A DNA stretch of 35,829 nucleotides, taken from positions 1 through 35,829 of IMG/VR virus record IMGVR_UViG_3300042462_000212; one strand, 5' to 3'. Numbering within the stretch: the first letter of the stretch is position 1; each line of letters opens with the position of its first letter. This DNA comes from a virus. Of the stretch, positions 7,753-35,829 are shown one piece after another. The notes beneath the pieces were generated by a model. The model did no database searches. It was not told the DNA's origin and saw nothing but the letters and a program-made list of their open reading frames with translations. Position numbers and translations under genes: made by a program.

Positions 7753-8019
7753 TTATTTTTTTTGAAGCATCCGATACGCCTCCTCAAGGTCTTTTTTGTA
7801 CATACTTTCCTCAAAGTCCATTAATAAGACTTCATATATTTCCTCCGCTGGCAAAGCCATTACTTCACCCATTGTTTTGTGATACTTTTCACCAATGGTT
7901 TTAATGGTCATTTTAGCCCCAAACTTTTTAAACCTATCTACATCTGCCAACACCTCCGCTTGCGTGGGCTTATAGTCGTTTAATCGCTTGTACTTGTCAA
8001 AAAATCGTGATAACTGTTC
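7753..8019 (-). CDS. Tail assembly chaperone, -1 frame extension (GT-like part)
   Basis: An open frame of 88 codons that continues the upstream 148-aa gene in the -1 frame. Its first in-frame GTG (7953) would give only 66 aa; no ATG precedes it. Joined at the T9 run, the protein reads ...ISYPLAAFFFEQLSRFFDK and then KYKRLNDYKPTQAEVLADVD, followed by RFKKFGAKMTIKTIGEKY. That is a smooth helical continuation, giving a 224-residue fusion. Known biology: siphophages commonly make a short and a long tail chaperone by -1 frameshifting (lambda G and GT). Here the pair lies after large terminase, not directly before tape measure. The assignment is inferred from the two-frame layout and helical composition. 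Confidence 0.55.
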   Translation of the reverse strand, partial: EQLSRFFDKYKRLNDYKPTQAEVLADVDRFKKFGAKMTIKTIGEKYHKTMGEVMALPAEEIYEVLLMDFEESMYKKDLEEAYRMLQKK

Positions 8020-8426
8020 AAAAAAAAAGCAGCCAAAGGGTATGAAATGGTAGTTGGTAGCTTTGAATAGTCCACATCCGTATATACTTTTAAAATAGGT
8101 ATCATTGCTTTAAATGGTTTTTCGGCTGCAATTAAATGAGCCTTTGCAACTTCAACTTTACCATAGGATTCTTTTCCAATATCCATTTTATTCTCTTCAG
8201 CTACATAGGCATCGGGCAATTCACTCATAAATGAAGTAGCTAACATAATCGAACCTAAAGATTCGCTATTGAGTCGTTCTAACTGGTCTTTTGAAACATC
8301 GAGTAAACAACTAACTTGCTCCAATGCTGTTTCGCAATCCATCCAGTTAATAAATCTTTCGAACGGCACGTCATGCCATGAAGTTGGTATTTGAATTATT
8401 TGAGTTCCAATACTTGAGGTTATCAT
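7980..8426 (-). CDS. Tail assembly chaperone-like protein (G-like short form), 148 aa
   Basis: Starts with ATG overlapping the terminase stop by 4 nt. The N-terminus IIQIPTSWHDVPFERFINWM has the 'IPxSWxDVxxxxF' phrase seen in many Bacteroidetes phage proteins with a chaperone-like role. The rest is largely helical, acidic and Leu/Ala-rich. The reading frame ends 12 codons after a T9 run. At that run a -1 shift enters the 88-codon extension described separately. I take the 148-aa product as the short form of a G/GT-like pair. An alternative is that the run should hold ten T and there is a single 224-aa protein. Confidence 0.55.
   Translation of the reverse strand: MITSSIGTQIIQIPTSWHDVPFERFINWMDCETALEQVSCLLDVSKDQLERLNSESLGSIMLATSFMSELPDAYVAEENKMDIGKESYGKVEVAKAHLIAAEKPFKAMIPILKVYTDVDYSKLPTTISYPLAAFFLNSYHDFLTSTSD
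8019..8025 (-). promoter_or_regulatory. Candidate -1 slippery heptamer T TTT TTG
   Basis: On the minus strand, codons TTT (8024-8022) and TTG (8021-8019) of the 148-aa gene are preceded by T, giving the canonical X XXY YYZ pattern. After a -1 slip the next codon is GAA at 8019, which enters the 88-codon extension. The heptamer is the end of a 9-T run (8028-8020). No stimulatory structure was computed. Confidence 0.5.
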
Positions 8427-9570
8427 ATTAGTGAATTTCGTTTTATAGTAGTAGCGTATTTTTGTTTGGTCAAATGTTGAAAACTATATCTAAGGGAGTC
8501 AATTCCGTGATTAAATGCATCAACTGGTATTCCTGCTTTTTTATCATTCCAAACATAATTAGATAATTCCTTTTTTAAGTTATGGCTTCGTTCGGTTATT
8601 ATTAGTCGATAATCTTGCATTTTAGTAATGCCAGCACTTACTGAGCCTTGCCCCTTTTCGCATCCAATTATATTTAATCCTTTTCGCTTTAAATCGTCAA
8701 TTAGTCTCGGCTCTGAATTATCTCCGATAATCAAATCAGTTGGTTTGCTAATCAGTTGTTTATTCGCTTGTAAAATAGCCTCCGTTCCCATCCCTTGACT
8801 TGAGTAAAGTAACTCGTCTGCAAATATAGTTTTTGTTTTTTCATCAACAGCAACTTTTATTAACGTGGTCGGGTCAATGCTAAACCCGTAATCCTGTCCA
8901 TAAGCATAAGGTAGTGAATTGTTAAAATCTCCAATAGTCCAATTCGTAAATATTGAACCCTCCCTTGTTGCTCTTTCTCCAGAGCCATAAATTTTCCACC
9001 AATAATCATTGTGCTTTCTGCTTTCAATATCTTCTATTTGAGCGGCTGTTAAATAGGGGTTGTCTTTATAAGTAGTTATGAGCGGAGGGTATTTTTCAAT
9101 ATAAGGGTCGAGCCAGTGTTCTAATCCTAATGCAGGGTTGTAGTCGCAAATTATCTTATGCCTTGTTCTCGGAAATAGTTGGTCTATTGTTTCCTGTGGG
9201 AATTGGTGCGCCTCGTTAATCCAAATGAAATCTCTTGACCTACCATGTATCTTTGCAGGTGTGTCCGCTCCATAATAGCTTATTAAGTTACCATTCAAGT
9301 TATAAGTGTGCTCACTTTTGTTATGGTGCATGTCGTTATACAATTCGCATTCAATTAATACGTCTTTAAAATCCTTCCATGCCGTTGCCCTTAATGCTGT
9401 GAATGTATCTCGGCAAATATCAATGTCTAGTCCCGAGTAGTTTTCGCATAGCCATATCAAATAATAAATAATTGAATATGATTTTCCGCTCCGAGTTCCC
9501 CCCTGCAAAAGGGTTATTCGTTGTTCGGGAACTTTTTTTTTAAATAAAGAAAATTAGGGTTTGCTTTCAT
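8423..9570 (-). CDS. terL: Terminase large subunit, with a -1 frame break near the N-terminus
   Basis: The packaging ATPase and nuclease. In the main frame (361 codons, 9508-8423) the Walker A motif GGTRSGKS comes almost at once, followed by a Walker B-like IWINEA at about 96-100, CDYNP (motif III) at 121-125, and a nuclease domain with likely metal ligands D206 (YGQDYGFS), D263 (IIGDNSE) and D337 (NHGIDS). The only start in that frame is TTG at 9508, which would remove the beta strand before the P-loop. The expected N-terminus (MKANPNFLYLKKK) is encoded from ATG 9570 in the 0 frame. That frame reaches a stop at 9514, but a -1 shift at the A9 run leads into VPEQRITLLQGGTRSGKS, giving 382 residues. 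The ATG overlaps the small terminase gene by 17 nt. Function is certain; how the two parts are joined is not. Confidence 0.92.
9532..9538 (-). promoter_or_regulatory. Candidate -1 slippery heptamer A AAA AAG in terL
   Basis: In the frame set by ATG 9570, codons 12 and 13 are AAA and AAG, preceded by A, giving A AAA AAG, the same heptamer as in E. coli dnaX. It is the end of a 9-A run (9541-9533 on the minus strand). A -1 slip makes the next codon GTT (9532), exactly the terminase frame. Without the slip, translation stops after 18 codons. Confidence 0.5.
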
Positions 9571-9875: not shown

Positions 9876-10616
9876 TTAAAGATTTAGTTCAATAGTAAAT
9901 TCATTGGCTTTTCTTTTTGCCGATTTTATCATATTAGGATACATATTAATTAATTTTTTAATTGCTTCCTTTTCCATAGCAATTGTTCTATAATCTTTAC
10001 ACCCCCCATCTTTGCCCCAATGGTCATTCTCCCAATGCAAATACCTTAATCCTAATATGCCCCCATATTTTACTATGTGCCTTAGACATATCTCATAATC
10101 CTCTTTAACTTTAAACGTTTCATCAAAATAAAACTCCCCATCGTTAATAATACCCATGCACGATGCGGTTAAATATGTTTTTGTTAATATAGGCTTATAT
10201 GGGTAAACGCTTCTTGGTGCTGATTCAGTTTTTAGTCCCCACATTTTATAATTTAATTGTTCTGTTATGTCAAATGCCTTTATAAACTCCTCACCCCAAA
10301 AACCCTCATCTCTTATTTCAATTCTCTTTGATTGTGTTAGTCCTAATTTAGTGTACCCGCAAAACTTCACATCATCGTCAATAAATACTACTCGCCTTTC
10401 TTGTGTATTTTTTAATATCCAATTTCTTGTGGGTGTTATGCCTTGTACATCCTTAGGCACTGAAACTATATTTTTATACAGTCCTTTGTATTGATGTATT
10501 TCACTTTCGGGAACGTACCAAGTTGCCAAATTTGGCAAAACCTTTTGGCTTGTTGTTAATCCTGCCCTCCCCTTACTTGGTATCGCTATTAGCACTAATT
10601 CTTTTTTTAAAATCAT
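9876..10616 (-). CDS. GT-A glycosyltransferase, TAGT-like (possible DNA base glycosyltransferase)
   Basis: This 246-residue protein starts VLIAIPSKGRAGLTT (residues 8-22), the usual first strand of this family, and has a DDD triad in RRVVFIDDDVKF at 80-82, the metal/nucleotide-sugar site of a GT-A fold. GEFYFDETFKVKEDYEICLR around 160-180 fits the catalytic acidic segment. The overall pattern matches the phage family named TET-associated glycosyltransferase (TAGT), thought to add sugars to modified DNA bases. The gene lies between a ParB-like gene and small terminase, a neighbourhood I recall for this family. Its ATG overlaps the ParB-like gene by 44 nt, unusually long here; GTG at 10595 (Val8) is an alternative start. 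The substrate is inferred. Confidence 0.65.
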   Translation of the reverse strand: MILKKELVLIAIPSKGRAGLTTSQKVLPNLATWYVPESEIHQYKGLYKNIVSVPKDVQGITPTRNWILKNTQERRVVFIDDDVKFCGYTKLGLTQSKRIEIRDEGFWGEEFIKAFDITEQLNYKMWGLKTESAPRSVYPYKPILTKTYLTASCMGIINDGEFYFDETFKVKEDYEICLRHIVKYGGILGLRYLHWENDHWGKDGGCKDYRTIAMEKEAIKKLINMYPNMIKSAKRKANEFTIELNL

Positions 10617-11199
10617 CCCAGTTCAAAACCCTTTCAAGCCCAACTGCATTAAATGGACTTCCTTTTTTATACCCTCCCTTAGAAACCATTTTTAGTTTCA
10701 ATGTTTCTTTGATCTCCTCCCATTCTATACTATTCGGTTCTGCCATAATTAAAATATATTCTTTTGGGGGCTCAAGTTGAACGCTTTGCGGTATTTCTAT
10801 TTCATCGCCATCCTCCAAATTATCTATTTGCTCATCAATTGGCACATCCAACCCCCATTTATCCAAATCATCTGCTTCGTAATCGTTGGCTAACATATTC
10901 CAATCCCATTCGCCACCACTTACGTTATCTTTAATAATAAACTCCTTTTGCTGTTCCTCTGTCAAATCCTCTGCCATAATTATCGGGACTTCTTTTAACC
11001 CTGCTTCTTTACAGGCTCTTAACCTCATATTGCCACCGAGTACAATCATATCAGCATTAACTACTATCGGACGTATTTCGAGCATCTTTGGGAAGTCTTT
11101 TATTGACTGCACCAACTTAGCAAATTTGTCATCCTTTATTACTCTCGGGTTGTTTGGGTTTGCTTTAATCTCTGATATTTTTACTTTTTGTGACTTCAC
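10573..11199 (-). CDS. ParB/sulfiredoxin-fold nuclease-like protein, 208 aa
   Basis: The N-terminal ParB domain is clear: VKISEIKANPNNPRVIKDDK at 6-25 (NPR box), IRPIVVNADMIVLGGNMRLR at 42-61 (the GGxxR phosphate-binding motif), then AGLKEVPIIMAEDLTEEQQK. The C-terminal part is acidic (DEQIDNLEDGDEIEIPQSVQ) and may be a protein-binding tail. Phage ParB-like proteins act in DNA binding, nicking or base-modification systems; genes of this type often sit beside modification glycosyltransferases. It overlaps the previous gene by 4 nt and the following glycosyltransferase by 44 nt. It is not likely to be a plasmid-type partition ParB because no ParA is present. Confidence 0.75.
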   Translation of the reverse strand: MKSQKVKISEIKANPNNPRVIKDDKFAKLVQSIKDFPKMLEIRPIVVNADMIVLGGNMRLRACKEAGLKEVPIIMAEDLTEEQQKEFIIKDNVSGGEWDWNMLANDYEADDLDKWGLDVPIDEQIDNLEDGDEIEIPQSVQLEPPKEYILIMAEPNSIEWEEIKETLKLKMVSKGGYKKGSPFNAVGLERVLNWDDFKKRISANSDTK

Positions 11200-12119: not shown

Positions 12120-12671
12120 TTAATAATTTTTTAAATAGTTAAGGTATTTTTTTTTCATTTCAATTAATTCATCTTTGCTCCATGCCTTTGTTCTTTGCGT
12201 TTCTGATAGCCGTTCCAAATTTTCAACGTATTCAATACCATACCTTTGAATTAATCCTTTTCGATATTCAGTTAAGTTTCCGCTCAAGTACTTATTGCAT
12301 TTTGAATTGCATTGTTTATGGCAATTAGTTTCTTCAAATATTAATCCAGTAAAAGGATATGCGCTAAAGTAGTGACCACCTGCCCATTGATTCGATTCTT
12401 TGCACCCGCAACTTATGCAAGGTTGGTCAAAGTCTCTTTTCCTAATCCAAAGTTGAAATACTTTTTTAGCATCTTTCAGATAATCAGATTTCTTTTTGAG
12501 TGATTCTTTGCGCTCTGATTGCCTTTTTTTAGATTCCTTAGCCTGTCGTTCAGCTAATTTACCCTTTGCATAGGTCAAAGCACATTCATAGCCACAAACC
12601 GATTGTAATGGCTTTTTAGGCTCAAACTCTATTTTACAAACTTTGCATTTTTTGTTGGCTTTTACCGACAT
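12120..12671 (-). CDS. ninG: NinG/Rap-like Holliday junction endonuclease, 183 aa
   Basis: It opens with a Cys4 zinc ribbon (C9, C12, C26, C30), then a Lys/Glu-rich linker helix, then the NinG core: FQLWIRKRDFDQPCISCGC, QWAGGHYFSAYP and ETNCHKQCNSKCNKYLSGN. In lambda, NinG (Rap) is a structure-specific nuclease that cuts recombination intermediates. Here it belongs with the ERF annealing protein and the exonuclease at 17.6-18.9 kb. A 9-A run near its 3' end (12155-12147) is read normally without a frame change, a useful contrast with the three frameshift sites. Confidence 0.85.
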   Translation of the reverse strand: MSVKANKKCKVCKIEFEPKKPLQSVCGYECALTYAKGKLAERQAKESKKRQSERKESLKKKSDYLKDAKKVFQLWIRKRDFDQPCISCGCKESNQWAGGHYFSAYPFTGLIFEETNCHKQCNSKCNKYLSGNLTEYRKGLIQRYGIEYVENLERLSETQRTKAWSKDELIEMKKKYLNYLKNY

Positions 12672-27885: not shown

Positions 27886-28507
27886 TTCCTATTCCTAATA
27901 CTGTGAATTGATTTCTTTTCTTTCTCGCTCTGCATAATTCAACTTCATATTTAACTCCGTCAAATGTGCTTTTAACTCTGTCTAATTCGTTTAACATTCT
28001 TGTTCTGTAAACATCTGATTTTCCTTTAAAGTTTTGCAACATTTCAGCACGTCTTTTATCAGATACTTGTCCGAATCCCTCTTGAGTATATTCCTCTAAT
28101 CCGAATTGAGTAACGTGCAATCCATGAAAAGGCAAATAACGTACTACAGTTGCCGTTGCTAACCATTTTTTTACAAAGTTGTAATAGAAATCCATTAACT
28201 CATACGAAGTCCAAAATTCAGCATCTTCTGGACTTGTTGTTGTTTGTTCTAAAGCTATGTAATAAGCAGAATTATAAAATACTTTCGCACCCTCTTCATA
28301 AGTACGACCATTTTTAAATTGAGAGTAATTAGCTTTTACTGCTTCGTTTATCGCTTGGTATAATTCAATTTGAATTAAGTTTTGCAGCTCGATTTCCTGA
28401 GCATCTATAACGTGAAGTTTCAAATCACTTTCATCCGTATTTGGCGAAAGTGCAAGAATCGGAGTTATATCCGTAATCCCAATCCATGCAAATAAATTGT
28501 TTATCAT
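27875..28507 (-). CDS. Head-tail connector (adaptor) protein, DUF6712-like, 210 aa
   Basis: N-terminal helix-rich region with DAQEIELQNLIQIELYQAIN typical of gp6/gp15-like adaptor proteins, an inserted segment GAKVFYNSAYYIALEQTTTS resembling a carbohydrate-binding motif, and a long helical C-terminus ending in basic residues (RARKKRNQFTVLG). It is coupled to the portal gene by a 4-nt overlap. The adaptor ring under the portal is the expected role. Confidence 0.6.
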   Translation of the reverse strand: MINNLFAWIGITDITPILALSPNTDESDLKLHVIDAQEIELQNLIQIELYQAINEAVKANYSQFKNGRTYEEGAKVFYNSAYYIALEQTTTSPEDAEFWTSYELMDFYYNFVKKWLATATVVRYLPFHGLHVTQFGLEEYTQEGFGQVSDKRRAEMLQNFKGKSDVYRTRMLNELDRVKSTFDGVKYEVELCRARKKRNQFTVLGIGNGR

Positions 28508-29634
28508 TTTACAATGTCTTTAGTTATACCAAATTCAGAAATAGTCCAGTCTATTTGACCGCCAAACATATTCCTAAACGCTTGCGTTATTAATCTTTGA
28601 ACTGGATTAACTGTTTGCCTAAGCATTGCCATTGCCTGCTTAATAGCGTTATCATTGCCTAAAACAGCCGCCTCTGCATATCCTAACAAAACTGGATGCA
28701 CTCCCCAAAGTCTACAAACGGCTCTCTCTATTATATCTCTTTTTGAATTACTTGCTTCTAAAATTGGTTTAGGGTCATTGCCTGAAAATATTGGTGCTTG
28801 TTCCGCCATTTCAGCAAAGTTCACCAATACTGCAAAACGTGAAGTTAATCCGTCTTTGTTTTTCTTCATGCCTGTGAACTGCACCATTTCGCCCTCTATT
28901 CTTTGCCTATCCGTTAATCCGTCTTCGCCTTTTTCGTTGTCATCAACGCCAAAGAAAGTCATAACACCACCTAAATTAAAACCATTTAGAACCGCTTCAT
29001 AATCCATTTTAGAAAGTTCTGATGAAGTCTTTACATCTTCAATACTCGCTAAAAAATCAGGTATTGCATAAACATCCGAATCAAAAGGATTGCCGTCAAA
29101 CACATAATAAATTTCGCCATTAGAATTGAAGTCTGTGATGTTCTTAGTCATGGCTTCAAAACTTGCTACTTCACCCTGAAAGTCTTGCAACTTAATCCAT
29201 GCGTTTTTATCTAACTTCTCAAGTCCAATAGTTGGATTATACATCCAGTTACCATCTAAAGACTTTCTAATCTTTTGGAACGGCATTAAGGTAGCTTTTC
29301 CAACTCGCCCATTGCCTAATCTCGAAATATGAAACACCGCACAATCCATATAAGCAAAAGACAAAGCAGATTTTGAAAGTAATTTATCAGCTGTTTCTTT
29401 TTCATTCACTTTAAAAAAAGATGCTTGCTCACTTACGAACCCATCGGACTCTATATACTCTGCATATTTTTTAGCTGCTTTTTTTGCCGTTCCTGAATTG
29501 TTTATAATGTCGATTATCTCTAAAGGCAAGTTATCATTCCACCCAAATTTATGGTAGCCTAATGCTTTGTTCTCGAATGTAGTAGGGAGTATATTCCTAA
29601 AATGTACTTTTGATGTTTTTTTGAATTTACTCAT
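28504..29634 (-). CDS. Portal protein, 376 aa
   Basis: The pattern fits phage portal proteins: LGYHKFGWNDNLPLEIIDII at about 26-45, KKAAKKYAEYIESDGFVSEQ, ENGRV-type stem region, then IERAVCRLWGVHPVLLGYAE and AMAMLRQTVNPVQRLITQAF in the C-terminal half, the latter typical for the helix that lines the channel. It is shorter than lambda B or HK97 gp3 (400-530 residues) but in the range of other Bacteroidetes phages. Located 19 kb from terminase, an unusual separation. Confidence 0.8.
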   Translation of the reverse strand: MSKFKKTSKVHFRNILPTTFENKALGYHKFGWNDNLPLEIIDIINNSGTAKKAAKKYAEYIESDGFVSEQASFFKVNEKETADKLLSKSALSFAYMDCAVFHISRLGNGRVGKATLMPFQKIRKSLDGNWMYNPTIGLEKLDKNAWIKLQDFQGEVASFEAMTKNITDFNSNGEIYYVFDGNPFDSDVYAIPDFLASIEDVKTSSELSKMDYEAVLNGFNLGGVMTFFGVDDNEKGEDGLTDRQRIEGEMVQFTGMKKNKDGLTSRFAVLVNFAEMAEQAPIFSGNDPKPILEASNSKRDIIERAVCRLWGVHPVLLGYAEAAVLGNDNAIKQAMAMLRQTVNPVQRLITQAFRNMFGGQIDWTISEFGITKDIVK

Positions 29635-30296
29635 ACAATATTCTGATAGTTTACAAACTTTTCTTTAATAGTTGAAACACCTTGTGGATGTATCACCAAT
29701 TTTTTATTCGGCTTAATGCAAAGATATTGTTTTTGGTAGTCAATATACATAGCATCTACTATTTTGTTAGCCTTACTTAATAAATTAATTAAATTGTTAT
29801 ATGCTCTCTTATGCACAACGTAAGCAAATGCGCCCCATGTGTAGACTTGTTTGGTAAAAAACTTGTCATAATATTGCGGAGGTCTACCAAACGAACCGCC
29901 TAAATAAAGGATATGGAAATTATCGGGAAGTTCCGATAAATACACTTGAAAATCTTTACTAAAACTATCAGTAAAAAGCACATCATCCTCAAATATAGCT
30001 ACGCACTCAAATCCTTGTTTCTTTGCATATTTTAACGCCTTTAAATGCGATTGGATACAAGCGTACTCATTATCAGTAACGCCTGCTATTTGGCTTTTAA
30101 TCTCTTTGCCGTCAATGGCTTGTATTATTTCGATTTCGGTGGTCGACCCGCTTTCTTTTTCGTAACCAAAACATCCCTTTTGTTTGGCTGCGCTGGCAAA
30201 GAAAGATTTTCGCCTGTCGGAACTTCGTTCAAGGTTGATAACGACTCCAGCGACTGGATAGTTAAGGGGTTGTCTTTTTTTTTGACTGCACTTAAT
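29631..30296 (-). CDS. GT25-like glycosyltransferase without a start codon (reached by -1 frameshift?)
   Basis: Open from just after TGA at 30299-30297 to the stop at 29631 (221 codons). It encodes a full family-25-like (LPS biosynthesis) transferase: VVINLERSSDRRKSF, EIIQAIDGKEI, ACIQSHLKALKYAKKQGF, FECVAIFEDDVLFTD with the DD metal motif, HILYLGGSFGRPPQYY, and WGAFAYVVHKRAYNNL. The frame holds no ATG, GTG or TTG before a GTG at 29981 that lies behind the catalytic DD. The upstream 107-aa structural gene runs through the first 170 bases in another frame, and its A9 run offers a -1 slip into this frame. The product would be a structural-protein/transferase fusion of about 272 residues. Rare-codon initiation or a missing base are alternatives. 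Confidence 0.65.
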   Translation of the reverse strand: MKCSQKKRQPLNYPVAGVVINLERSSDRRKSFFASAAKQKGCFGYEKESGSTTEIEIIQAIDGKEIKSQIAGVTDNEYACIQSHLKALKYAKKQGFECVAIFEDDVLFTDSFSKDFQVYLSELPDNFHILYLGGSFGRPPQYYDKFFTKQVYTWGAFAYVVHKRAYNNLINLLSKANKIVDAMYIDYQKQYLCIKPNKKLVIHPQGVSTIKEKFVNYQNIV

Positions 30297-30448
30297 TCAA
30301 CAAAACAATGCCCATAGTTATAAAGTTTGGCAATTTCTACCTTTTCATCTGTGATATTATCAGCAGTAATATTGATAAGACTCCAATTGCTATCTCTAAA
30401 ATTAAGTTCACCAATGCCGTCTTTTAGTTTGTACTTTGAAAAATTCAT
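30125..30448 (-). CDS. Small structural/connector-like protein, 107 aa, overlapping the GT25 frame
   Basis: Starts MNFSKYKLKDGIGELNFRDS, a pattern I associate with small head-tail region proteins of Bacteroidetes phages, followed by ITDEKVEIAKLYNYGHCFVE. After the KKK encoded by the A9 run (residues 56-58) the sequence becomes low-complexity and ends TKKKAGRPPKSK. The last 170 bases therefore encode both this tail and the N-terminus of the GT25-like protein in the -1 frame. It lies between the GT7-like gene and the portal. Confidence 0.6.
   Translation of the reverse strand: MNFSKYKLKDGIGELNFRDSNWSLINITADNITDEKVEIAKLYNYGHCFVELSAVKKKDNPLTIQSLESLSTLNEVPTGENLSLPAQPNKRDVLVTKKKAGRPPKSK
30275..30283 (-). 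promoter_or_regulatory. Candidate -1 slippery site (A9 run, A AAA AAA)
   Basis: In the 107-aa gene, codons 56-58 are AAA AAA AAA followed by GAC, so A AAA AAA is in the correct phase for a -1 slip. After the slip the reading is AGA CAA CCC..., the frame of the GT25-like protein. The upstream limit of that frame is a TGA 14 nt before the run. Confidence 0.45.
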
Positions 30449-30456
30449 ATAATTAA

Positions 30457-31065
30457 TTAAATGTTTACTAAAATTCTTTCAACTCCAAATATAGTATCTC
30501 TTTTCAATATTTCATAATTCATGCTATTTAAACCACTTTTTAGCCATGTTTGTCCTGTTGCTAACACTAAGTGTTTATTTACTTTATATTGGTCTGTAAT
30601 AGGCTGTTTTTCGTGTGCTAAAGAAAAGTATCTATGTTGCTCAAATTTAGTTTCTATTCCTGCTAAAATAGTTCTATTGAATAAGTCATCATCTTCACCA
30701 CCCCATCCCCAAAAATCATTGCTGAATCCGTTGCATTTTAAAAATGAATCTGAATCAAAAGCAGTAACCCCACCAAAGCAAGTTTCATAAGGTACTTTAT
30801 AATTAAATTGCTCACATAAACCTGAAAAGTGATAAGCCCCTTTTATCGGTTTTGAGTAATGGTCTAAATTATGAGCTAATAAATCCACATCGTGAAAACA
30901 AACAAGTGAATCTTTTGTTTCATTAAAACCGATATTAAAGAGTTTTCCTCTGTTAAATAGCTTTTTATTAGCTTGTTCTACTACCAATATATCAAAGCCC
31001 TTGTAATGGTCTACAAACCGCTTTAAATGCGATTCTCTGTTTCTATATGGTATGATAATTTTCAT
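30457..31065 (-). CDS. Beta-1,4-galactosyltransferase-like glycosyltransferase (GT7), 202 aa
   Basis: Matches the B4GalT family closely: IIIPYRNRESHLKRFV at 3-18, NRGKLFNIGF at 38-47, LVCFHDVDLL at 54-63 (the DVD metal motif), YETCFGGVTAFDSDSFLKCN at 93-112, and FWGWGGEDDDLFNR at 118-131, the family signature. Such enzymes transfer galactose or GalNAc onto GlcNAc or related acceptors. There is no signal peptide or membrane anchor, so it acts in the cytoplasm on a phage or host target. It overlaps the neighbouring transferase by 4 nt. Confidence 0.85.
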   Translation of the reverse strand: MKIIIPYRNRESHLKRFVDHYKGFDILVVEQANKKLFNRGKLFNIGFNETKDSLVCFHDVDLLAHNLDHYSKPIKGAYHFSGLCEQFNYKVPYETCFGGVTAFDSDSFLKCNGFSNDFWGWGGEDDDLFNRTILAGIETKFEQHRYFSLAHEKQPITDQYKVNKHLVLATGQTWLKSGLNSMNYEILKRDTIFGVERILVNI

Positions 31066-31700
31066 CGGTTAATTAATGCCCATTCATAACACCTGTCTAT
31101 TCTTTCAGTTTGCGCTACATCTTTGCCATATTCTCTGCTATACCATGAATGTATGCCCATCGGTTTGTCATTAATCTTAATTACAGTACTGACCCCATCC
31201 GTACTTTCTATATCAGTGAAATTAGCACTCACAAAGTTATCATGCAGCCAATATAAAAACCCTGCAAATGGCTCGTTTAAGTTTCCATTCTTTTCAACTT
31301 TATTTGCGTACTGATATTGTTTTGAATTGTCGAATGAAGCTATTTTAGTTTTAATCAAATCCACATTAAACACATTGAAAAAAGGATTAACATTGAAAAC
31401 AGAATTATTTCTGTGGCTAATTATACCGCCATCAGGAACTCCGCAATATGCATAACCTTTTTCAACCATTGTGTTTATTACATTGTCTAATAAATCTTCA
31501 TTCACAATAAAAAAATCTTCATCTGCATTTACTATAATGCCTGAAAAGTTATGAGTAAACAAATGCAAAAGATAATCTAATGCACCGTTATAGCCTTGAA
31601 ATTGTTTACACTGAATAAAATTATTATCGCTTTGCCAAAGTCCTTTAGCAAGTGTGTATAATTTTTCATTTGCCGAGCGTGTTACTATTGTTTTAACCAT
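31062..31700 (-). CDS. GT-A-type glycosyltransferase-like protein, 212 aa
   Basis: Contains FSGIIVNADEDFFIVNEDLL at about 52-71, with a DxD-like D60-E-D62, AYCGVPDGGIISHRNNSVFN, NPFFNVFNVDLIKTKIASFD and IGIHSWYSREYGK-like MGIHSWYSREYG near the C-terminus. The order of strands and the acidic motif fit a nucleotide-sugar transferase, though the family was not pinned down. Adjacent GT7 and GT25-like genes support a shared glycosylation pathway. Confidence 0.6.
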   Translation of the reverse strand: MVKTIVTRSANEKLYTLAKGLWQSDNNFIQCKQFQGYNGALDYLLHLFTHNFSGIIVNADEDFFIVNEDLLDNVINTMVEKGYAYCGVPDGGIISHRNNSVFNVNPFFNVFNVDLIKTKIASFDNSKQYQYANKVEKNGNLNEPFAGFLYWLHDNFVSANFTDIESTDGVSTVIKINDKPMGIHSWYSREYGKDVAQTERIDRCYEWALINR

Positions 31701-32010
31701 TGATTCTATTTTTTATCCATTCGCAAATCTCAAAGTGTTCTGATTTTTGAAACTCAATAAGTGCTAATTTCAATTTGTACTTTTTATGCTTTTCGTATTC
31801 AGCATTTTCGACATCAAACTTACCAATATTTTCCCGATAATATTTTTTTATTGACAAATGAGCATCTATTAAACAACTGCTGCATTTAGTGTTTAATTCT
31901 TTACTATAAATTTCTTTATAATAAAATGCTAACTGTGTAATTGGAACGTCATAATATGACTTACTAACAACGTCTTGATAAACCTTTTCTAAGAATTGAA
32001 TTGTTACCAT
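31693..32010 (-). CDS. Hypothetical protein heading the glycosyltransferase cluster, 105 aa
   Basis: Start at ATG 32010, directly behind the promoter-like box at 32012-32022; the longer frame from 32034 would run into the terminator hairpin. The protein is helical and Lys/Tyr-rich with a CSSC motif (ELNTKCSSCLIDAHLSIKKY). It may bind a metal or act with the transferases; no family recognised. It overlaps the next gene by 8 nt. Confidence 0.55.
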   Translation of the reverse strand: MVTIQFLEKVYQDVVSKSYYDVPITQLAFYYKEIYSKELNTKCSSCLIDAHLSIKKYYRENIGKFDVENAEYEKHKKYKLKLALIEFQKSEHFEICEWIKNRING

Positions 32011-32011
32011 A

Positions 32012-32022
32012 GGACAAAAATA
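32012..32022 (-). promoter_or_regulatory. Promoter-like TAnnTTTG box of the glycosyltransferase/portal operon
   Basis: Minus strand TATTTTTGTCC, ending 1 nt before the ATG at 32010, so the message may be leaderless. It begins where the T-tract of the upstream terminator ends. The upstream box was not recognised. Confidence 0.45.
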
Positions 32023-32052
32023 AAAAAAGCCCACAATAATGTGAGCTTTTTT
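32023..32052 (-). terminator. Intrinsic terminator after the tail tube gene
   Basis: Minus strand AAAAAAGCTCAC, loop ATTATT, GTGGGCTTTTTTT: a 12-bp stem with one T-G pair followed by a T tract. It is symmetric enough to work in both directions. It separates the highly expressed capsid/tail genes from the glycosyltransferase operon. Confidence 0.85.
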
Positions 32053-35283: not shown

Positions 35284-35829
35284 CAACGGACTTATCCACG
35301 TTTGTTTCAAAGTTTCTAAACTCCTCAAGTACTAATTTTTGTGCTGGCATAGCAGACACCGCTTGCATCATTGCTTTTTCAGTTGCATTGCGTGCCATTA
35401 AATCACTACCTGCATTTCGTGTTGAGTAACCCCCATCGCCCGTAGGAATAAATCCTGTTGCAAATCTTTTATTGCCCATTTGAAAGTTAGGTCTATTGCC
35501 CACTGCTAACTCCATTTGCGCTAATATCGGTGCAAATCTTTCGGTTGCCCTTGCTGTGATAACTGATTCACCTCTTGAAAGTTTAGCATCTATTGAATCA
35601 CTTGTTGCCGTTCCCGCCCCCTCTAATCCGATAACACCTGTGGCAAATGCTGGCTTTGGTGGCGCAGGCTGTGAAGCTATAACTGCTATTTGTGCAGCTC
35701 CCGTTGCCGCTGCAAGTGCCGACAATATAGCCCCCGCAAATGGCACTGGATTGGCAAATTGAGCAATTACCGCCTGAGCTGTATTAATTATGGTTTGAAT
35801 TATTGACGTCGCTTTATTGGCTTGAAATT
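35267..35829 (-). CDS. Tape measure protein, C-terminal part
   Basis: Continuation of the gene that starts at 2668, here with 187 codons. It contains the Ala-rich hydrophobic segment (PFAGAILSALAAATGAAQIA), then IASQPAPPKPAFATGVIGLE, the motif RGESVITARATERFAPIL, and the C-terminal FRNFETNVDKSVAISEL. Bases 35410-35829 duplicate the beginning of the window, so this copy and that at 1-420 encode the same residues apart from one Asp/Glu change. The last 17 nt overlap the plus-strand regulator gene tail to tail. Confidence 0.9.
   Translation of the reverse strand, partial: FQANKATSIIQTIINTAQAVIAQFANPVPFAGAILSALAAATGAAQIAVIASQPAPPKPAFATGVIGLEGAGTATSDSIDAKLSRGESVITARATERFAPILAQMELAVGNRPNFQMGNKRFATGFIPTGDGGYSTRNAGSDLMARNATEKAMMQAVSAMPAQKLVLEEFRNFETNVDKSVAISEL
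35410..35829. repeat. Terminal redundancy, right copy
   Basis: Second copy of bases 1-420, with nine substitutions and no indel. Trimming either copy gives a 35,409-bp circle in which the tape measure gene is continuous. The differing bases are probably alleles of two coexisting phage strains. Confidence 0.93.

Follow-up and report, generated by a model that had tools for sequence, protein, structure and literature searches.

Phage proteins that are extended through a change of reading frame are already known. In lambda and many other tailed phages the tail assembly chaperone pair G/GT comes from a well-known -1 change of frame late in a small morphogenesis gene, which gives a minor, extended product; both parts are assembly factors and neither is found in the virion (PMC5009743). 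In T3/T7 10B, Lactobacillus phage A2 and the Listeria phages PSA and A118 it is a fraction of the protein that gains a C-terminal domain from another frame, with the extensions described being mostly Ig-like (PMC5009743); known frameshift extensions of phage structural proteins as a whole are mostly these or other non-enzymatic domains. A conserved run of about nine A's or T's within overlapping ORFs has been described for Thermus dnaX, for IS elements and for Shigella spa13; the slip in spa13 comes after 58 codons and gives the protein a C-terminal extension overlapping with the start of the next gene (PMC5009743, PMC1088944). In retroviral Gag-Pol an enzyme that is needed in small amounts is attached by frameshift to a minor fraction of a structural protein (PMC5009743). 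Finally, glycosyltransferase genes of the mycobacteriophage Maravista have been proposed to glycosylate a capsid protein (PMC11256854).

Here we describe a viral locus that shares features with each of these systems, in which a glycosyltransferase of the GT25 type is very probably expressed as a -1 fusion to a small protein through a homopolymer. It lies in the window, that is the whole stretch of 35,829 nt that was analysed (IMG/VR record IMGVR_UViG_3300042462_000212). On the minus strand a 107-aa gene is followed by GT25, in the -1 frame relative to it, and then by the portal gene (Table 1), with the portal ATG overlapping the GT25 stop codon (ATGA; stop at 29633-29631), an overlap also present in relatives. 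The GT25 frame is open back to a TGA at 30299-30297 and has no ATG, GTG or TTG ahead of its DD motif, the first GTG (29981) being the codon directly after that motif. Within the 107-aa ORF the A9 run is read GTC AAA AAA AAA GAC, so that an A_AAA_AAA in phase with this ORF begins 14 nt past the TGA of the GT frame. On both points, the missing start codon and the phase and place of the heptamer, the reading of the frames bears out an earlier note on this DNA. A -1 slip on the run would join residues 1-58 of the 107-aa protein to GT25, giving a fusion of 272 aa with the predicted junction ...AVKKK/RQPLNYPVAGVVINLER.

Table 1. Features of the window at the three junctions and beside them
Feature	Position	Strand	Description or basis
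107-aa 0-frame gene	30125-30448	minus	small folded domain (residues 1-52) and flexible basic tail ending GRPPKSK
Candidate A9 slip site	30275-30283	minus	A_AAA_AAA in phase with the 0 frame; every relative has A9 or A10
GT25 glycosyltransferase, -1 frame, without standard start codon	29631-30296	minus	Pfam, ORF reading
Doubly coding overlap of small-gene tail and GT25 N-terminus	30125-30274	minus	dual-coding comparison
Portal gene	28504-29634	minus	ATG overlapping GT stop
GT7-type glycosyltransferase, just upstream	30457-31065	minus	PF02709 E=1.4e-24, PF13733 E=3.6e-13
Large terminase start, ATG frame (MKANPNFLYLKKKFPNNE, then stop); short dead end without a slip	9514-9570	minus	
Candidate A9 slip site at which a -1 shift joins MKANPNFLYLKKK to VPEQRITLLQGGTRSGK of the terminase	9533-9541	minus	
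Large terminase body, -1 frame	8423-9553	minus	PF04466 E=2.5e-17
Tail assembly chaperone G-like gene, 148 aa	7980-8426	minus	by anatomy
Candidate T9 slip site (coding strand), from G to a -1-frame T extension ending near 7753	8020-8028	minus	

The GT frame is matched over its residues 19-178 by the Pfam family PF01755 (60.3 bits with a cut-off of 24, E=3e-16), and the N-terminal part that has no start codon therefore belongs to the enzyme. Both the N-terminal INLxRS motif and the acidic EDD motif by which GT25 proteins are recognised are present, in agreement with the earlier description of the frame as GT25-like with a complete N-terminal motif. The five lineages in which the locus is found score between 45.2 and 66.2 bits against the same cut-off; one relative from each further lineage is 34-67% identical to the protein of the window, and in the alignment of all five INLERS and EDD are invariant down to 34% identity. 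An AlphaFold2 model of the frame was unusable (mean pLDDT 36.8) and the family assignment rests on Pfam, from which the frame is predicted to encode a sugar-attaching enzyme. A separate 212-aa gene at 31062-31700 (minus strand) lies beside the GT7 gene and is kept in lineages A to C; it matched no clear family and may be another glycosyltransferase.

A search of IMG/VR with the GT protein gave six contigs, all of the same design, and DNA patterns (the GT motif, and an A run followed by that motif) brought in more members, among them a lineage whose small gene differs in sequence and the distant locus L033; three further loci from the pattern scan, L031, L036 and L046, were chance matches without GT25. 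As pattern searches might favour the A run, an unbiased search of IMG/VR was made with the portal protein alone, which gave 25 loci, 24 of them reaching the junction region, and revealed a new fifth lineage. The lineages are A (the window and L001-L004), B (L005 and L006), C (L030 and its kin), D (L033) and E (L091-L095); they are of shared ancestry and comparisons between them are hence not fully independent. The same arrangement is found in 24 of the 24 loci that reach the region, across all five lineages, and every one of them has A9 or A10 at the junction. In 23 of them the GT frame lacks a standard start codon from its upstream stop to the motif; the lone exception (L112, on the same contig as L001) has a TTG in this frame, ahead of the run. 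An ATG for GT25 is absent from all the relatives examined (24 portal-family loci). The earlier note had named two findings that would speak against a fusion, a normal ATG in a relative and a run length by which the two genes are separated, and neither was found in the relatives. The window and its relatives together hold 16 distinct GT25 junction sequences with the A9 or A10 always in the same place, and in lineages B and E the stop of the GT frame lies at or just before the run, which means that there the frame change must occur on the run itself. Two non-identical copies of the small gene/GT25 junction (L042 and L044) are found on one contig, IMGVR_UViG_3300034061_002014, and are perhaps overlapping ends of different strains.

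The 107-aa gene is kept in lineages A to C and E, and its C-terminal GRPxKSK is retained in all four though the GT residues encoded by the same DNA differ. Constraint on this tail was assessed with a null model that kept constant both the GT sequence and the background rate at which synonymous changes occur, the similarity of the 0-frame tails being compared with 5000 simulations; the tail of lineage D (L033) differs and is not comparable. None of the 5000 simulations reached the observed similarity for the window and L005 in either direction or for L030 against the window, and the window against L030 gave P=0.0024, so that four of the six comparisons, the four involving the window, have P<=0.0024; the two between L005 and L030 (lineages B and C) are weaker (P=0.083 and 0.036). 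An earlier null of random synonymous recoding had been dropped as too generous, the codons not being saturated. Both frames are constrained in the overlap, in keeping with the remark in the earlier note that both look meaningful there; the doubly coding stretch has a length of about 150 bp instead of the 170 bp first given, which is reached by counting from the upstream stop.

These comparisons also bear on whether the frame relation is real and functional. It would seem most improbable that it reflects a sequencing or assembly error in the homopolymer, with a true run one base longer or shorter that would give one in-frame fusion or two ordinary genes: whilst homopolymers are error-prone and all the sequences are metagenome assemblies, 26 contigs, the window among them, share the frame relation, their 16 different junction sequences offset the difference between A9 and A10 by neighbouring substitutions, the 0-frame tail after the run is conserved and, short of fusion, the GT would still have no start codon at any other run length. 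The lack of a start codon could equally be taken as a sign that GT25 has decayed and that the frame relation is a relic of a gene insertion, yet this can practically be set aside given a full-length GT25 with both motifs invariant even in its most divergent relative, a GT frame that is open in every locus covering it, and a small-protein tail that is conserved over that frame.

Junctions of the same design occur elsewhere in the genome. The large terminase is split at an A9 run in nine genomes from three lineages (the window and eight relatives), and in L048, L049 and L115, where it is split, there is no standard start anywhere before the Walker A motif; four relatives (L050, L056, L057 and L116) have an uninterrupted terminase of the MKANPNFDYLHEKVNDQRITLLQGG type with a normal ATG and no run. 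Terminase is essential for phages, and its splitting argues that slipping on A9 works in the hosts of these viruses. The gene that follows encodes a protein without a match in Pfam or PHROG that by its position and anatomy is a tail assembly chaperone, and T9 or T10 is found at its junction in lineages A, B, C and E. A fourth A9 run, at 12147-12155 (minus strand), lies near the C-terminus of a NinG/Rap-like gene (12120-12671) and is also found in L079 and L080; a slip there would alter just the last residues of the protein.

An independent start for GT25 at an ATT, ATC or ATA near the N-terminus, with the A run being incidental, is a further explanation, and an ATC is indeed present at the Ile of INLERS in every locus checked, with an ATT or ATC further upstream in most. 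However, initiation at the ATC of the motif would leave out the start of the enzyme's first strand, and the near-cognate codons ahead of the motif are not conserved (they are absent from L090, and in the window the sole one is an ATT that sits right after the stop and before the run). Neither the conserved A9 or A10 at the -1 junction nor the identical design of the terminase and chaperone junctions would be explained. We therefore regard an independent start as very unlikely.

The length of the runs bears on the step at which the frame changes. In a junction search that accepted runs of at least 7 nt (the entry L031 in its list is one of the chance matches) the run is always 9 or 10 nt long in 34 distinct junctions, 16 from GT25, 6 from the terminase and 12 from the chaperone. 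Such runs of A are otherwise avoided: among 341 genes and 70,051 codons of eight genomes, with the expectation taken from codon shuffles, coding sequences hold 11 runs of at least nine A's where 25.7+-3.9 are expected, most of the 11 being GT25 junctions, and a single run of at least ten where 11.7+-2.7 are expected. Runs of at least nine T's are not depleted (11 observed, 6.7 expected) and seven of these are the chaperone junction. Slippage in bacteria typically needs about 8-9 A's (PMC1088944, PMC6260861), the E. coli polymerase does not slip on fewer than eight A's or seven T's (PMC6260861), and in a large share of bacterial genomes selection against slippage-prone runs is evident at nine A's or T's (PMC1088944). 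A conserved homopolymer of at least 8-9 nt at a junction of overlapping ORFs, together with the depletion of long A runs elsewhere, is what would be expected of slippage. No consistent RNA structure was found downstream of the junction in eight sequences (z about -2.2 to +1.3, one near -2; folds without pseudoknots) and no Rfam family matched. The uniform run length, the depletion of A runs and the lack of a conserved RNA structure thus favour transcriptional slippage, which on this sequence evidence is probably how the frame is changed. That two more genes of the window have junctions of this design, which the earlier note had not seen, points the same way.

The same fusion could be made at a different step, by -1 ribosomal frameshifting on A_AAA_AAA or U_UUU_UUU, both of which are also ribosomal slip sites. 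A heptamer of the X_XXY_YYZ form is present in phase in every lineage as A_AAA_AAA, lineage E additionally has an in-phase A_AAA_AAG, the best site in E. coli, and every shift is towards -1, like that of lambda G/GT (PMC5009743). Yet a heptamer requires just seven A's and would leave the 9 or 10 nt of all 34 junctions without a reason, the stimulatory downstream structure is not seen, and the junction sequences have no conserved Shine-Dalgarno-like element upstream. Ribosomal frameshifting as the main route would seem rather unlikely, although it may contribute alongside slippage.

For the small protein the predicted structure has a pLDDT of about 90 over residues 1-50, falling to 50-60 in the tail. 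A variant in one further lineage reads MIPQKFKL...GRPFKSKD, and in lineage D the small domain forms part of a longer protein, where (L033, 2335-2814) an in-frame fusion joins it to what is likely a homologue of a 113-aa gene that stands separately in the window (31693-32034). Neither Pfam and profile searches nor structure comparison placed the 107-aa protein in a family; Foldseek against a viral structure library gave one weak match, to an uncharacterised phage protein, and matches in the PDB were judged meaningless. Its position between a tail-tube-like gene and the portal gene suggests that it is a virion component.

With respect to the host, two scans of bacterial genomes found no relative, and the phage collection contained no relative, and so no cultured one, of the small protein, the portal or the capsid. 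Similar terminases occur in phages of Bacteroides and Flavobacterium, among others, and a Bacteroidota host is likely from this resemblance. The plus-strand ORFs 63-353 and 35496-35762, one near each end of the window, share a coding sequence that is probably part of the tape measure gene; the extreme ends are not an exact match, and the repeat suggests a circular or terminally redundant genome. A TAGT-type glycosyltransferase (PF20691, TET-associated glycosyltransferase) at 9876-10616 (minus strand) adjoins a ParB-like gene at 10573-11199 and is possibly linked to DNA modification.

The fusion of residues 1-58 to a complete GT25, as first put forward in the earlier note, is strongly supported by its recurrence in five lineages, by the absence of an ATG in any relative, by the dual constraint and by the like junctions elsewhere. 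We propose that, in copying a homopolymer of 9 nt or more, the RNA polymerase would insert A (net +1, or +4), and that normal translation would then enter the GT frame. The main product would then be the small protein with its basic tail and a minority would be the small domain joined to GT25, the latter being made solely as this C-terminal extension; the same device would serve the tail chaperone and, in many genomes, the large terminase. Slippage in spa13 affects spa32 (PMC5009743), and because the portal ATG overlaps the GT stop, portal translation could likewise depend on how often slippage occurs.

As to what the fusion is for, the leading reading, akin to the delivery of the enzyme to the virion suggested in the earlier note, is that the small domain may act as a tether that keeps a restricted number of GT25 molecules at the head-neck assembly, where together with the adjacent GT7 they would glycosylate virion proteins; we offer this role tentatively and would put it at somewhat short of an even chance. 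More simply, slippage might do no more than set the dose of GT25, with no targeting role for the fusion. More doubtful still is the widest form of the tethering proposal, in which several morphogenesis genes (chaperone, terminase and the GT fused to a head-neck protein) would be set by RNA polymerase slippage on runs of 9-10 nt, slippage would fix the number of copies of a capsid-proximal protein that carry the GT, and the enzyme, held in the particle or an assembly intermediate, would glycosylate the virion in place.

If slippage does govern the terminase, standard annotation is truncating or calling broken an essential gene that works, and gene prediction goes wrong across a whole phage group. 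The locus also makes a link between the fidelity of the host RNA polymerase and virion assembly directly testable. A search of the literature outside subscription papers gave no report of such a GT fusion, and the abstract of the Maravista report describes none made by a frameshift, in a phage of other hosts (PMC11256854). The locus is like lambda G/GT in the -1 change near the end of a small gene and in the minor extended product, but it has an enzyme as the extension and a homopolymer of 9-10 nt as the slip site. As in T3/T7 10B, A2, PSA and A118 it is a protein of the virion region that would be extended, but with a glycosyltransferase in place of an Ig-like domain and on a small protein that is placed in the virion region by its position. 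The run of about nine nucleotides in overlapping ORFs is shared with Thermus dnaX, IS elements and spa13, whereas the genes differ, and slippage is proposed here for two or three genes of a single virus, including the terminase. Whilst the proteins are unrelated to Gag-Pol, no RNA structure was found and the frame change is probably transcriptional, a conserved enzyme extension would show a phage following the same logic, dosing an enzyme and placing it on its own particle, and it is the enzyme as the extension that would be new.
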